Shown here: positions 54,590 through 59,090 of the stretch, piece by piece
How positions within the stretch are numbered: the stretch's first letter is position 1
Layout: each line of letters starts with the position of its first letter
From: Polyangium sp. 15x6
GTDB lineage: Bacteria > Myxococcota_A > Polyangia > Polyangiales > Polyangiaceae
Direction of reading: 5' to 3'
Length of the DNA stretch: 64,000 nucleotides
NCBI RefSeq assembly: GCF_029960785.1
Contig: NZ_JASBQE010000012.1
Span: forward strand, 1-64,000
The notes under the pieces: generated by a model
What the model saw: the letters and a program-made list of their open reading frames with translations, nothing else
The model's database searches: none
Told to the model about the DNA's origin: nothing
Translations under genes and position numbers: made by a program

Positions 54590-55138
54590 ATGAGCACCAA
54601 CGAAAAACCCGAGGTCTTCAAGGTCGCCACCTTCACCCTCAGCGATACGCGCACGCCGAGCGACGACGTGGGCGGCCGCGTGCTCGTCGATCGCCTGCGG
54701 GCGGCGGGTTTTACCGTCGTCTCGCACGCGATCCTGCGGGAGGAGCCGGACGAGCTCCGCGAGGCGATCCACTACGTCTGCGACGCGGACGCGGCCGACG
54801 CGATCGTGCTGACGGGCGGGACGGGGATCGCGCCGCGGGACCGGACGATCGAGGTGATCGCGCCCATGCTCGACAAGACGATCGACGGCTTCGGCGAGGC
54901 GTTCCGCAGGCTCTCGTGGGATCAGATCGGGCCCCGCGCGATCCTGTCGCGCGCCATCGCCGGCGTGGTGCGAGGCAAGGTGATCGCGGCGCTGCCAGGC
55001 AGCCCGAGCGCCGTCGAGCTCGCGGTCGATGCGCTGCTCGCACCGACGCTGGCCCACGCGATCGCGCTGGCGTCCGGGCGAGGCGGGAAACACGCCGCGC
55101 ACGGCCATGCTCACGGCAAGCATGGGAGGAAGCACTGA
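54590..55138 (+). CDS. moaB: MoaB/MogA-family molybdopterin adenylyltransferase
   Basis: 182 residues. Core motifs are FTLSDTRTPSDDVGG, VLTGGTGIAPRDRT and ALPGSPSAVELAVD, matching the MoaB/Mog fold that adenylylates molybdopterin before molybdate insertion. The C-terminus carries a His-rich tail, GGKHAAHGHAHGKHGRKH, not part of the fold. Its stop overlaps the moeA start by one base (TGATG), coupling the two successive steps of the pathway. Confidence 0.93.
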   Translation: MSTNEKPEVFKVATFTLSDTRTPSDDVGGRVLVDRLRAAGFTVVSHAILREEPDELREAIHYVCDADAADAIVLTGGTGIAPRDRTIEVIAPMLDKTIDGFGEAFRRLSWDQIGPRAILSRAIAGVVRGKVIAALPGSPSAVELAVDALLAPTLAHAIALASGRGGKHAAHGHAHGKHGRKH

Positions 55139-56340
55139 TGCTTTCGTATCGCGACGCTCTCGCGCGTCTGCTCGCCGCCGCGAAGTCCGTGGGCAAGGAG
55201 CGCGTGAGCGTGGATCAGGCCGCCGGGCGCGTGCTCGCGGAGGACCTCGTCGCGCGCGCGCCGATGCCGGCGTTCGATCACAGCTCGATGGATGGCTACG
55301 CGGTGCGCGCCGCGGATGTCGAGGGAGGCGGGCCGTTCGAGTTGCCCGTGGTCGGCGAGAGCTCGGCTGGCGGCGAGAGGCCCGCGCTCGCGCCGAAGAG
55401 CGCGTGCCGGATCTTCACGGGCGCGCGACTGCCCGAGGGCGCGGATACCGTGATCATGCAGGAGAACGTCGAGCGGCGCGGCGACGTGATCGTGATCCGC
55501 GAGGCGCCACGAGCGGGCGCGTGGATCCGTCGACGTGGATCCGATCTCGCGGAGGGCGCGGTGGCGATCGCGCGGGGCACGCGGATGAGGCCGGGTCACG
55601 CGGCTCTCGCGGCGGCGCTCGATCGTCCTTTCGTGCTCGTCGCGCAGCGGCCCGTGGTGACGATCCTGTGCTCGGGCGACGAGCTGCGATCGCCGGGCGA
55701 GCCGGGCAAACCCGGATCGATCGCCGAGTCGAACGGCGTGTTCGTCGCGGCTGCAGCCTGTCAGATCGGGGCGATCGCGCGCGTGGGCGCGTACGTGCCG
55801 GACGACCTCGACGTCGCGCGCGCGGCGGTCGTGGAGGCGCTGCGCGGAAGTGATCTCGTGGTGACGATCGGCGGCGTGAGCGTCGGGGATCGTGACGTGA
55901 TGCGGCCCGCGTTCGAAGCGGCCGGCGTGACGCTCGATTTCTGGCGCGTGGCCATCAAGCCGGGAAAGCCGATCGCCGTGGGCCGCGCCGGGGACACGCA
56001 TGTGCTCGGGTTGCCCGGCAATCCCGCGAGCGCGTCGCTCACGTGGCTGCTCTTCGGAGCGCCGCTCGTGCGAGCGTTGCAAGGTGACCCGGCGCCGCTC
56101 CCGCAGCGCGAGCGCGTGGTGGTGGTGGGCTCGTACGAGCGTACGCCGGGCCGCGAGGAGTTCGTCCGCGCGCGGATCGAGCCGGGCACGGGGCCGATGC
56201 GCGCGCGGATCCTGCCGAATCAGGCGTCGGGCGCGGTGACGAGTTTTGCCGAGGCGGAGGTGCTCGTGGTGGTGCCCGCGAGCCAAGGGAGCGTCGAGGA
56301 CGGGAGCGAGCTCGAAGCAATCCGGATCGACGCGTTCTGA
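55138..56340 (+). CDS. moeA: Molybdopterin molybdotransferase MoeA
   Basis: 400 residues with the four-domain MoeA layout: MPAFDHSSMDGYAVRA near the N-terminus, FTGARLPEGADTVIMQEN, the MoeA/MogA-like domain TIGGVSVGDRDVM with FWRVAIKPGKPIAVG and LGLPGNPASA, and a C-terminal barrel. It inserts molybdate into adenylylated molybdopterin. GGAGG precedes the ATG at 55138. It is convergent with moaE, with stops 2 bp apart. Confidence 0.95.
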   Translation: MLSYRDALARLLAAAKSVGKERVSVDQAAGRVLAEDLVARAPMPAFDHSSMDGYAVRAADVEGGGPFELPVVGESSAGGERPALAPKSACRIFTGARLPEGADTVIMQENVERRGDVIVIREAPRAGAWIRRRGSDLAEGAVAIARGTRMRPGHAALAAALDRPFVLVAQRPVVTILCSGDELRSPGEPGKPGSIAESNGVFVAAAACQIGAIARVGAYVPDDLDVARAAVVEALRGSDLVVTIGGVSVGDRDVMRPAFEAAGVTLDFWRVAIKPGKPIAVGRAGDTHVLGLPGNPASASLTWLLFGAPLVRALQGDPAPLPQRERVVVVGSYERTPGREEFVRARIEPGTGPMRARILPNQASGAVTSFAEAEVLVVVPASQGSVEDGSELEAIRIDAF

Positions 56341-56342
56341 GG

Positions 56343-56837
56343 TCAGCGCTTCTCGTCGTGCGCGCGGCCGTGGTGCGCGTGCGCGTGATGTCCGTGTTCG
56401 CCGTGGTCGGGCGCGCAGCGCGCGTCCTCCCAGCCGACCCAGTAAGGCCCGTCGGGGCCGTGCTCGCGTTTCCAGATCGGGAGCCTGGCCTTGATGCGAT
56501 CGATGAGCTCGCGACACGCGCGGAACGCCTCGCCGCGATGCGGGGCGCTCGCGGCGCATGCGACGGCGACGTCGCCGACGTGGAGCGCGCCGATGCGGTG
56601 CGTGGCTGCGACACGAACGCCCGGAATCTCACGCTCGATCTCTTCGAGGATCCGCTGGAGCTCAGCCTCGGCCATGGTGCCGTAGGCCTCGTATTCGAGC
56701 AGGCTCACGGCGCGGCCGTCGTTCGTGTTGCGAACGACGCCGAGGAACGTGGCGATCGCGCCCGCCTCGGGGCGCGCCACGATCTGGATGATCTCGTCGA
56801 GCGAGAGCGCCTCGCGGCGGATACGCGTCGCGCTCAC
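56343..56837 (-). CDS. moaE: Molybdopterin synthase large subunit MoaE
   Basis: 164 residues from a GTG that overlaps the moaC stop (GTGA), with GGAGG 5 bp upstream. Core: GAIATFLGVVRNTNDGR, LEYEAYGTMAEAEL, RIGALHVGDVAVACAASAPHR, and the active-site Lys region PIWKREHGPDG. It transfers sulfur from the MoaD thiocarboxylate to cyclic pyranopterin monophosphate. The C-terminus ends in a His-rich tail (HGEHGHHAHAHHGRAHDEKR) like that of MoaB. Confidence 0.94.
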   Translation of the reverse strand: MSATRIRREALSLDEIIQIVARPEAGAIATFLGVVRNTNDGRAVSLLEYEAYGTMAEAELQRILEEIEREIPGVRVAATHRIGALHVGDVAVACAASAPHRGEAFRACRELIDRIKARLPIWKREHGPDGPYWVGWEDARCAPDHGEHGHHAHAHHGRAHDEKR

Positions 56838-57772
56838 GGCGACCTCCGGAAGTGTCCCGATCGACCACCGCTCTTCTCCACCAGCATCACGTCCTCGACG
56901 ACCATCTCGCGATCGATGCCCTTGAGCATGTCGTACAGCGTGAGCGCGGCGACCGACGCGGCCACCATCGCTTCCATCTCCACGCCGGTCCTGTCCGTGG
57001 CCTCGGCGCTCGCCGTGATCGAAACGCGCGCGGCGGCCTCGTCGACGTCGAGCGCGATGGCCACGTGCGTCAGGGCGATCGCGTGACACATCGGGATGAG
57101 CTCCGGCGTGCGCTTGGCGGCCATGATGCCGGCGATTCGCGCCGTCGCGAGCACCTCGCCCTTCGGCGTGTCGCCACGCGCGAGGCGAGCGGCGGTCTCG
57201 GGCCGCATGCGCACGCGCGCGACGGCGACCGCGCGCCGCTGCGTCGGCGGCTTCTCGGCGACGTCGACCATCCGGACATCCCCGCGAGGACCGAGGTGCG
57301 AGGAGAGGCTCGTCGCATCGGTCGCGTGCGCAGCAGCGCGCGGGACGAGGACGTCGAGCGCGGCCGAGAGGATCGTCGGATCGCTGCGCTTTGCCGCGCG
57401 GCGGAGGCAGTGCACGAGAGAAAAACGAGCGAGGCCCGAGAGCGAGGCCCACGTGCGCGCGTCGATCGATCGATCTGCCGGCAAAGCCTCACGCAGGCCT
57501 TCGGGCAGGTGATCCGGGCTCGGATCCGCGGCGAGTGGCATCGGGAGTGCAGGAGGGTGGGCCTGCTGCACGATCTCGTTGACAGTCGCCACGTCGACGA
57601 CGGCCTCGGCGCCGGCGCGCGTGATCCGCCGTCGCTCCTCGAACGCGAGGGAGCGCCAGCCTTCGAGCGGCAGCCGGAGCCCGGCGTGATCGAGTGCGCG
57701 TCGCGCAGCGAGAGGAACGAGATCCAGCGCGGGCCCGATCTCTTCGGCTTCGAATGAAAATACTTCGTTCAC
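56834..57772 (-). CDS. moaC: NarM-like (nitrate-reductase-associated) / MoaC fusion protein
   Basis: 312 residues. Residues about 157-310 are a complete MoaC (cyclic pyranopterin monophosphate synthase): KGEVLATARIAGIMAAKRTP, LIPMCHAIALTHV (H230), GVEMEAMVAASVAALT, YDMLKGIDREM (K284) and VEKSGGRSGHF (K300). Residues about 5-140 match the nitrate-reductase-associated family to which cyanobacterial NarM belongs: FSFEAEEIGPALDLVPLAAR, LPLEGWRSLAFEERRRI and TWASLSGLARFSLVHC. Such a fusion is not standard. It uses a GTG start, 12 bp after moaA, and its stop overlaps moaE. Confidence 0.88.
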   Translation of the reverse strand: MNEVFSFEAEEIGPALDLVPLAARRALDHAGLRLPLEGWRSLAFEERRRITRAGAEAVVDVATVNEIVQQAHPPALPMPLAADPSPDHLPEGLREALPADRSIDARTWASLSGLARFSLVHCLRRAAKRSDPTILSAALDVLVPRAAAHATDATSLSSHLGPRGDVRMVDVAEKPPTQRRAVAVARVRMRPETAARLARGDTPKGEVLATARIAGIMAAKRTPELIPMCHAIALTHVAIALDVDEAAARVSITASAEATDRTGVEMEAMVAASVAALTLYDMLKGIDREMVVEDVMLVEKSGGRSGHFRRSP

Positions 57773-57784
57773 GGAGGCCGAATC

Positions 57785-58834
57785 CTATCCGCCGATCGCG
57801 CGCATGGACACGCCCGCGGCGGTCTCCTCGGTGCAACCCTTCCAGATCGTGCCGTCGGGCTTCATCGACCAGGCGAGCCCGATGTGCTCGACGATCGCCT
57901 CCGCATCGCCCGCGCGCGCAGGCGCTCCTGCGTCGACGCCGTCGTCCGTGGCGAGGCAAGGACGCAGGACGCCCGTCGACGAGACGCGCAGGCGATCACA
58001 GGTCTCGCAGAACGTGTCGCTCGTGCCCGTGATGAACCCGACGCGCAGCGCCGGATCGTGGCGCGCGCGCACGTACTTCGCGGGGCCGAGGCCCGGATCG
58101 GTGACGGCCTCCTCGGGGAGGAGGTGCGCGGCGAGCGCCCGGCGCATCTCGGACGCCGTGACGAGGTGATCGGCCACGAGCTTGGCTCCCTCGGCGATCG
58201 GCATGACCTCGAGGAACCGCGGCAAGATCCGTTTTTCCCAGGCCCAGAGCAAGATGCGCTCGAGCTCGTCGTCGTTCACGCCGCGCAGGACGACGGTGTT
58301 CAGCTTGATCGGAGAGAACCCCGCTTCGATCGCGGCGTCGATGCCCGCGAGGACGGCGTCGAGATCGCCGCCGCGCGTGACCTCGCGAAAACGAACGGGG
58401 TCGAGTGTGTCGATCGAGACGTTCACGCGATGCAGCCCCGCGTCGCGCAGCGGCCGAGCGAGGCGCGCGAGCTGCGAGGCGTTCGTGGTGAGCGCGAGGT
58501 CCTCGAAGCCGAGCGAGGAGAGGTGCGCGACGATCGAGACGATCTCGGGATGCACGAGGGGCTCGCCACCCGTGAGCCGCACGCGGCGTACGCCCGCGCG
58601 CCGCAGCGCCTCGAACATGGTCTTCCACGCCGGCGTCATGAGGCGACCGTCCGCGTAGCCATCGTTCCGCGAGGGCCGGCAGTACGTGCAGGCGAAGTCG
58701 CACCGATCGGTCACGGAGACACGCACGCTGCGCGGCGGCGGGCCGGCCGAAACGCGCGTCGGCACGAGCGAGCGCGCGCCGAGCATCGGCAAGGATCGCC
58801 GTTTCTCGACCGTCGGATCGTTCACCACCGCCAC
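57785..58834 (-). CDS. moaA: GTP 3',8-cyclase MoaA
   Basis: 349 residues. The radical-SAM cluster is CDFACTYC, TGGEPLVHPE is the SAM region, and the C-terminal second cluster is CETCDRLR followed by GVLRPC. The protein ends RAIGG, keeping the functional C-terminal GG. It converts GTP to 3',8-cyclo-7,8-dihydro-GTP, which MoaC rearranges. A GTG start with GGAGG 8 bp upstream follows moaD by 4 bp. The N-terminal extension of about 35 residues before the core is a little longer than usual. Confidence 0.96.
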   Translation of the reverse strand: MAVVNDPTVEKRRSLPMLGARSLVPTRVSAGPPPRSVRVSVTDRCDFACTYCRPSRNDGYADGRLMTPAWKTMFEALRRAGVRRVRLTGGEPLVHPEIVSIVAHLSSLGFEDLALTTNASQLARLARPLRDAGLHRVNVSIDTLDPVRFREVTRGGDLDAVLAGIDAAIEAGFSPIKLNTVVLRGVNDDELERILLWAWEKRILPRFLEVMPIAEGAKLVADHLVTASEMRRALAAHLLPEEAVTDPGLGPAKYVRARHDPALRVGFITGTSDTFCETCDRLRVSSTGVLRPCLATDDGVDAGAPARAGDAEAIVEHIGLAWSMKPDGTIWKGCTEETAAGVSMRAIGG

Positions 58835-58838
58835 CGCC

Positions 58839-59090
58839 TCATCCTCCCGCGACGGGCGGGATCAACGCGACCTCGTCCCCCGACCGGACCTCCTCGTCGG
58901 GTCGCGCATACGCGCCGTTCACCGCGACGCGGATCGATCGCCGATAAGGAACGAGCGCGGGAAAACGGCTGCAAACGTGGTGAAGAAGCTCCTCCGCGGT
59001 GCACGGCGCGTCGAGCGGAAAGACGAGCTCCGACGCACCGAGCACGTCCCGCGCCCCCGCGAACGCGAGCAGCCTCACCGTGTTCGACAT
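58839..59090 (-). CDS. moaD: Molybdopterin synthase sulfur-carrier subunit MoaD
   Basis: 83 residues with a ubiquitin-like fold ending in the required PPVAGG; the C-terminal Gly carries sulfur as thiocarboxylate. VRLLAFAGARDVLGASEL and AVNGAYARPDEEVRSGDEVAL are typical. It is the first gene of moaD-moaA-narM/moaC-moaE. No MoeB-type activating enzyme gene is in the window, so activation must come from elsewhere. Confidence 0.93.
   Translation of the reverse strand: MSNTVRLLAFAGARDVLGASELVFPLDAPCTAEELLHHVCSRFPALVPYRRSIRVAVNGAYARPDEEVRSGDEVALIPPVAGG

Follow-up and report, generated by a model that had tools for sequence, protein, structure and literature searches.

A NarM-like domain fused to MoaC in a Polyangium molybdenum cofactor operon is a candidate pyranopterin-handling module

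The window analyzed here is a stretch of 64,000 nucleotides from the soil myxobacterium Polyangium sp. 15x6 that contains a set of molybdenum cofactor (Moco) genes. The minus-strand genes are ordered moaD, moaA, a NarM-MoaC fusion gene, and moaE, and they converge with mog and moeA on the plus strand. moaD (positions 58839 to 59090, minus strand; start inferred) encodes a ThiS-family protein (PF02597, 57.3 bits), and moaA (57785 to 58834, minus strand) scored 290.6 bits against TIGR02666 (cut-off, 284.05). The fusion gene (56834 to 57772, minus strand) has a GTG start and is an open frame of 312 amino acids with two Pfam domains. It is followed by moaE (56343 to 56837, minus strand; PF02391, 131.4 bits), whose GTG start overlaps the stop codon of the fusion gene in the sequence GTGA. 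A reading made earlier from the sequence alone (the sequence-only reading) had placed the fusion between moaA and moaE, and this is correct. The plus-strand genes are mog/moaB (54590 to 55138; PF00994, 104.6 bits, below the NCBIfam cut-off of moaB_proteo) and moeA (55138 to 56340; start inferred; PF03453, PF00994, and PF03454). The genome containing the window is 13.4 Mb in size and, when searched as a whole, yielded one PF09655 match (47.9 bits) and one MoaC match. The closest named relatives of the fusion protein are from Polyangium (L081, L083, and L085) and are 92 to 96% identical to it over the whole protein. The translations also revealed histidine-rich C-terminal tails on the mog and moaE products (window positions 54590 to 56837), which perhaps bind metal or are only lineage specific.

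Pfam analysis of the fusion product identified a MoaC domain (PF01967) at residues 168 to 303, encoded within positions 56834 to 57301 (minus strand), with a score of 179 bits (cut-off, 27), in agreement with the fusion to MoaC that had been proposed. The TIGR00581 equivalog cut-off was also exceeded (185.7 bits; cut-off, 141.5). Of the MoaC active-site positions, which we take to be K51, K67, H77, E112, E114, D128, K131, and K147 in E. coli numbering, all eight are present in the window protein, and each is found in 28 or 29 of 29 fusions. Foldseek superposed the predicted MoaC half on the E. coli structure 4pyd (E value, 7e-17). The window protein therefore resembles E. coli MoaC (TIGR00581; 1ekr and 4pyd) in having a full-length MoaC domain over the cut-off with the checked active-site residues kept, but unlike that protein it has an N-terminal extension of ~150 residues with a second domain. 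It also resembles the bifunctional MoaC/MoaB, MoaC/MOSC, and MoaC/MobA proteins of NCBIfam, in which MoaC is joined to a Moco-related domain; however, the partners there are different, the window protein scores well short of their cut-offs, and none of these models contains Nitr_red_assoc.

No stop codon lies between the NarM-like and MoaC parts. The zone from late NarM to the start of MoaC lacks any ATG, GTG, or TTG in 12 of 29 aligned fusions; at least one start-like codon is present there in the other 17, and a Shine-Dalgarno-like stretch precedes it in 2 of these. The inter-domain zone of the window gene has one GTG, without such a stretch. This survey disfavors separate translation of the two parts, the alternative that the sequence-only reading had named. 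Among four Polyangium genes (six pairs), dN/dS was 0.09 to 0.35 for the NarM part, 0.21 to 0.39 for the linker, and 0.03 to 0.10 for MoaC, with the linker above both domains in all six pairs. The NarM-like domain is under purifying selection within the genus. An AlphaFold2 model of the fusion (29-row alignment; mean pLDDT, 84.3; pTM, 0.50) contained two mostly well-predicted domains. They are joined by a linker (residues 127 to 157; 57302 to 57394, minus strand), and residues 146 to 158 are predicted to be disordered (pLDDT below 50); given this low-confidence stretch and the pTM of 0.50, the mutual placing of the two domains is not fixed. Three fusions (L086, L089, and L098) have a NarM-to-MoaC spacing of 149 to 166 residues, compared with 13 to 33 in the other 28, and no Pfam match was obtained for the additional residues of L086 or L053 (L053 and L089 are one protein).

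The sequence-only reading had assigned the N-terminal 140 residues to the nitrate-reductase-associated (NarM) family. A profile match to PF09655 (Nitr_red_assoc) was obtained over residues 4 to 126 (57395 to 57763, minus strand) at 46.5 bits, against a gathering score of 25, so membership in the broader family stood. Membership in NarM proper did not: TIGR02664, the NarM subfamily model, was matched at 49.7 bits, far short of its cut-off of 110, which makes the domain a divergent Nitr_red_assoc relative. A chance match or a wrong family was ruled out, since the Pfam cut-off was exceeded and the NCBIfam model also matches. A Pfam scan of the protein (E values up to 0.01) returned only MoaC and Nitr_red_assoc, and the FdhD-like chaperone domain (PF02634) was absent. 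NarM proper is a stand-alone protein of ~150 to 160 amino acids whose gene is near, or co-occurs with, nitrate reductase, whereas the window domain is fused to MoaC and has Moco genes on its flanks; the best nitrate reductase candidate of the window genome (L141) scored 846 bits, whereas the NasC cut-off is 1100. Like cyanobacterial NarM (PF09655, TIGR02664), the domain is over the cut-off of the same Pfam family, and all 30 cyanobacterial rows found by profile match Pro20, Arg24, Asp28, Trp39, Trp108, and Arg116 of the window protein. Unlike NarM, it is part of a MoaC protein in a Moco operon and lacks the HPGHEHRN-type C-terminal tail of the cyanobacterial rows aligned. According to studies of Synechococcus narM, nitrate reductase activity depends on NarM; we know of no account of what NarM contributes to that enzyme.

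The solo domain of a cyanobacterial relative (L106, first of 62 rows) is predicted to be mostly helical (pLDDT, 89; pTM, 0.81). The best Foldseek match of this fold to the PDB had an E value of 2.9, VIA-align run on Foldseek's candidates only gave no match with a Z score of 2 or more, and a sequence search of the PDB with the NarM domain found no relative at E values up to 1. A tree of 143 NarM domains had two main clades, one of 62 rows that holds nearly every Moco fusion and one of 81 rows that holds nearly every solo gene, each with support of 98/97; finer forks are weak because the alignment had only 131 columns. MoaC fusion origins appeared on this tree as seven label changes (bootstrap, 5 to 7), at least one of which is forced.

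The survey for other NarM-MoaC fusions and neighbors that the earlier reading had suggested covered 98 genomes of the window's taxonomic family, with PF09655 in 66 and a MoaC match in 90. Of 68 PF09655 matches, 57 lie less than 1 kb upstream of a same-strand MoaC match, and all 57 are in frame with it (56 genomes of 98). The MoaC partner scored over 100 bits in 51 of the 57 and was weaker in 6; among the 51 are G012 and G075 of genus g13, in which MoaC is partly decayed. This count is slightly low, as the fusion of G054 was missed by Pfam and found by a custom profile. The 11 unfused matches comprise nine stand-alone genes, which have the highest PF09655 scores (85 to 113 bits), one NarM-MoaE fusion, and one gene at a contig end that may be cut (G034). 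Among the matches listed, an unfused MoaC of more than 100 bits was absent from 50 of the 51 fusion genomes, many of the assemblies being incomplete; the exception was G027. A pattern scan of named genomes, a sample that overlaps the 98, gave 71 loci, of which 31 are NarM-MoaC, 1 is NarM-MoaE, and 39 are others. Beyond the taxonomic family but within the same order, where 97 of 183 genomes match the Nitr_red_assoc alignment, there was one further NarM-MoaC fusion (G940). The Nitr_red_assoc family was found in 21 of 282 genomes of a Myxococcota sample, 6 of 398 Pseudomonadota, and 58 of 146 Cyanobacteria. No fusion to the reference Moco genes was seen in the Pseudomonadota loci read or in the 30 cyanobacterial loci read, out of 58 matches. 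Phyla other than these three were covered by a peptide-pattern scan only.

Other Moco proteins also carry the domain. One of the 31 NarM-MoaC loci (L072) encodes NarM, MoaC, and MoaE in one frame, and a NarM-MoaE fusion follows moaA in L052 (L088 is the same place). MobA-NarM occurs as a single frame in G259 and G969, and the opposite order, NarM-MobA, occurs in G314 and G910; G259 and G314, the MobA fusions represented in the tree, belong to separate main clades. In L235 (4335 to 5198, minus strand), a borderline MazG-like stretch (27.7 bits; cut-off, 27) is followed in frame by a NarM-like domain; MazG is the sole non-Moco in-frame Pfam partner over its cut-off among the frames scanned.

Further inspection of the stand-alone form revealed Moco and molybdoenzyme genes nearby. 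The NarM gene and mobA have a 4-base overlap in L054, adjoin each other on the same strand in L226 and L227, and converge in L094 (= L238) and L235. fdhD is beside stand-alone NarM in all six Pseudomonadota loci, three of which are close relatives and one of which is from the genome at the center of the search; in L221 the cluster also has moaA, moeA, and an fdhA-like gene. In Peristeroidobacter, FdhA over its cut-off and FdhD are near a NarM-type gene. Among 12 loci of the solo clade (Binatota and others), FdhA and a NuoF-like gene are less than 4 kb away in L108, L123, L130, and L136 (the NuoF-like identity was Pfam checked in L136 only), a NuoF-like gene alone is near the end of the available stretch in L117, L125, and L127, and FdhD-like pieces are present in L110; four loci lack such neighbors, three of them having short upstream stretches. 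A NapA-like enzyme slightly below both NapA cut-offs is near the gene in L064, with a match to that enzyme in L232 of the same genus, and L104 has a DMSO-reductase-family enzyme that includes a CysJ-like flavoprotein part. In the 30 cyanobacterial loci, a NarB-type gene is near in 11 and moaA in 1. Five have a mobA-like gene, all from one close clade and weak (24 to 30 bits), with the MobA motif seen by eye in L181, and 13 have no reference Moco, NarB, or Fdh gene within ~5 kb. In the named scan, cyanobacterial NarM is near moaC, moeA, or moaA in L109, L119, L120, L122, and L134. Around stand-alone NarM in Sorangium and a related genus (L049, L050, L051, and L067), MoaA, MoaC, MoaD, MoaE, MoeA, and Mog were not found within ~5 kb (MobA, FdhD, and NarB were outside that search), and the same six were likewise not within ~5 kb in L058 to L060 (family f2). 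The genes of these last three loci (genomes G250, G269, and G292) are diverged, lack the conserved Asp, and sit beside protoglobin histidine kinase genes, the kinase being Pfam confirmed in L059 and L060.

Since formate dehydrogenase genes are frequent beside the stand-alone form, the family extends beyond nitrate reductase, and given these and the fdhD neighborhoods a role for nitrate reductase only is too narrow. We also considered NarM as a replacement for FdhD. In the window genome an Fdh-alpha match exceeds the cut-off (L140), and an FdhD match was found in none of six genomes of the genus. Across the 98 genomes, however, both were present in 43, NarM only in 23, FdhD only in 11, and neither in 21. 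The two tend to co-occur (Fisher p, 0.005; relatedness not corrected), and replacement is not supported. The window protein would resemble the FdhD/FdsC chaperones in cofactor carriage to DMSO-reductase-family enzymes, and in each of the six Pseudomonadota loci the gene of such a chaperone adjoins solo NarM; unlike these chaperones, the window protein has no FdhD domain and comes from a genus with no FdhD match. The molybdopterin enzymes of L144 (window genome) and L055 (870 to 3125) have N termini that look alike by eye, and neither reached an NCBIfam equivalog cut-off; the L055 enzyme, rejected as NarB because its score does not reach the cut-off of any listed NCBIfam model, is near a NarM-MobA fusion, and a gene matching it is beside a NarM-MobA fusion in L225.

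Arg24 and Asp28 (codons 24 to 28 at 57689 to 57703, minus strand) form a conserved polar pair one helix turn apart in the NarM domain. The pattern scan demands a P-[LM]-A-[AV]-R-R-[AK]-L-D block, so that invariance is built into alignments derived from it, and counts were taken from profile-found loci only; after this recount the conclusion for the pair was unchanged. In fusions with a working MoaC, Arg24 is kept in 30 of 30 and Asp28 in 29 of 30 (one Glu). Both are kept in all 30 cyanobacterial and all 6 Pseudomonadota genes. Other Myxococcota frames without MoaC keep Arg24 in 30 of 34 and Asp28 in 29 of 34, the five without Asp28 being L040, L041, and L045 (f2, not near reference Moco genes) and the second copies L241 and L242 (G038 and G067); L243 of G034 lacks Arg24 and keeps Asp28. 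Arg25 is not conserved outside Myxococcota, being Tyr, for example, in 17 of 30 cyanobacterial rows.

The pair has a different fate where MoaC is weak or decayed. All 15 such places read have an upstream NarM domain, 12 of them with a pseudo-MoaC and 3 (genus g13) with a partly decayed one. Six active-site residues are lost in 12 of 12 pseudo-MoaC proteins. In the pseudo-MoaC rows, including later loci, Arg24 is kept in 2 of 15 and Asp28 in 0 of 15, and in the g13 rows the counts are 3 of 3 and 0 of 3; Trp39, Arg47, Trp108, and Arg116 are kept in all 15 pseudo-MoaC rows. Asp28, and mostly Arg24 too, is thus lost together with the Moco link, a pattern that rests on few independent events (pseudo-MoaC, g13, and f2) because all pseudo-MoaC rows belong to a single clade. 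Most simply, the two residues would serve a pathway ligand or partner. Among the forms read, the Asp is missing only in those that are decayed or apparently unlinked. No Moco reference genes were seen in the loci of the pseudo-MoaC paralogues (L147 to L158, plus L230, L231, and L233), which are possibly a pseudoenzyme family; 7 of 12 tested have a C-terminal hydrophobic segment resembling a membrane anchor.

Cyclic pyranopterin monophosphate (cPMP) is formed when MoaC rearranges the product of MoaA, a step that precedes the addition of any metal or nucleotide; molybdopterin (MPT) is made from cPMP by MoaE with MoaD, and molybdopterin guanine dinucleotide (MGD) is made by MobA. The association of NarM-type domains with Moco is repeated from the first steps (MoaC and MoaE) to the last (MobA, FdhD, and the apo-enzyme). 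The domain very probably has a role in the Moco pathway. The synthesis or delivery role put forward by the sequence-only reading is thus supported by the MoaE and MobA fusions, by fdhD in 6 of 6 Pseudomonadota loci, and by published co-occurrence of the cyanobacterial gene with Moco synthesis genes (PMC5862535). No single reaction accounts for all partners, given that MoaC, MoaE, MobA, and FdhD belong to different steps; what they share is pyranopterin, from which we infer that NarM-type domains bind or present pyranopterin intermediates. FdhD binds bis-MGD (PMC6239281), and this suggests a ligand class shared with the NarM-type domain.

The best explanation overall, to which we give about an even chance, is that the gene product is a two-domain cPMP synthase, with a normal MoaC and an N-terminal NarM-type domain on a flexible linker, the latter being a Moco-pathway module that binds or hands over pyranopterin. 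The domain would bind pyranopterin, or dock enzymes that carry it, and so aid its passage between steps, with Arg24 and Asp28 of the helix as part of the working site. When fused to MoaC it would pass cPMP to the MoaE/MoaD stage, and hand-over might continue down to insertion in DMSO-reductase-family enzymes. In the window genome the module would be built into the sole MoaC found, and in cyanobacteria and others a separate NarM would serve nitrate reductase or formate dehydrogenase. The specific bind-and-hand-over mechanism falls somewhat short of even probability. We suggest only tentatively that Nitr_red_assoc is a general Moco-traffic module whose Arg24/Asp28 site binds cPMP, MPT, and MGD, plugged into MoaC, MoaE, MobA, or the chaperone/apo-enzyme stage, with cyanobacterial NarM as the nitrate reductase branch only.

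The main rival is a chaperone specific for bis-MGD, FdhD- or NarJ/TorD-like in role, that loads the DMSO-reductase family only, so that the MoaC fusion merely tethers synthesis to delivery. The solo gene lies beside fdhD (6 of 6), formate dehydrogenase genes, NapA-like enzymes, NarB-type genes (11 of 30 cyanobacterial loci), and mobA, all of which concern bis-MGD steps. However, the commonest fusion is to MoaC, which acts before metal or nucleotide, and another is to MoaE; furthermore, xanthine-dehydrogenase-type enzymes (PF02738) occur in 75 of the 98 family genomes, including that of the window, where they are necessarily served by the same MoaC. We regard this reading as possible but rather doubtful. 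It is unlikely that the domain instead regulates or oligomerizes MoaC through feedback sensing of the cofactor level, with solo NarM sensing Moco for nitrate reductase or formate dehydrogenase. The pseudo-MoaC paralogues, which keep the two-domain plan without catalytic residues and have the C-terminal hydrophobic segment in 7 of 12, look sensor-like, but they have lost Asp28 and mostly Arg24 and so do not share the conserved site. That the fusion arose accidentally from gene order, with no meaning for NarM function, is very improbable: tight packing of operon genes and high G+C make in-frame read-through easy, but against this stand the 57 of 57 in-frame cases, the residues conserved among deeply diverged fusions whose detection used no residue pattern, dN/dS well below 1, and the repeated fusions with other Moco genes.

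In the open-access literature searched, which leaves out most subscription papers, we found no report of a NarM-MoaC fusion or of a biochemical role for NarM. A co-occurrence study groups the cyanobacterial gene in a single module with a nitrate reductase, MoeA, molybdenum cofactor proteins A and C, and a protein printed as "MoeE" (presumably MoaE), and explains that module by the enzyme's need for cofactor (PMC5862535). In picocyanobacteria, narM is recorded in 119 of 132 genomes and narB in 118 of 132 (PMC9361551). If the pyranopterin-module reading is true, the family name "nitrate reductase associated" is too narrow. With fusions to three Moco enzymes, fdhD and formate dehydrogenase neighborhoods, and the Arg24/Asp28 pair, the role of NarM becomes a question that can be answered experimentally, and Arg24 and Asp28 are a target for mutagenesis.
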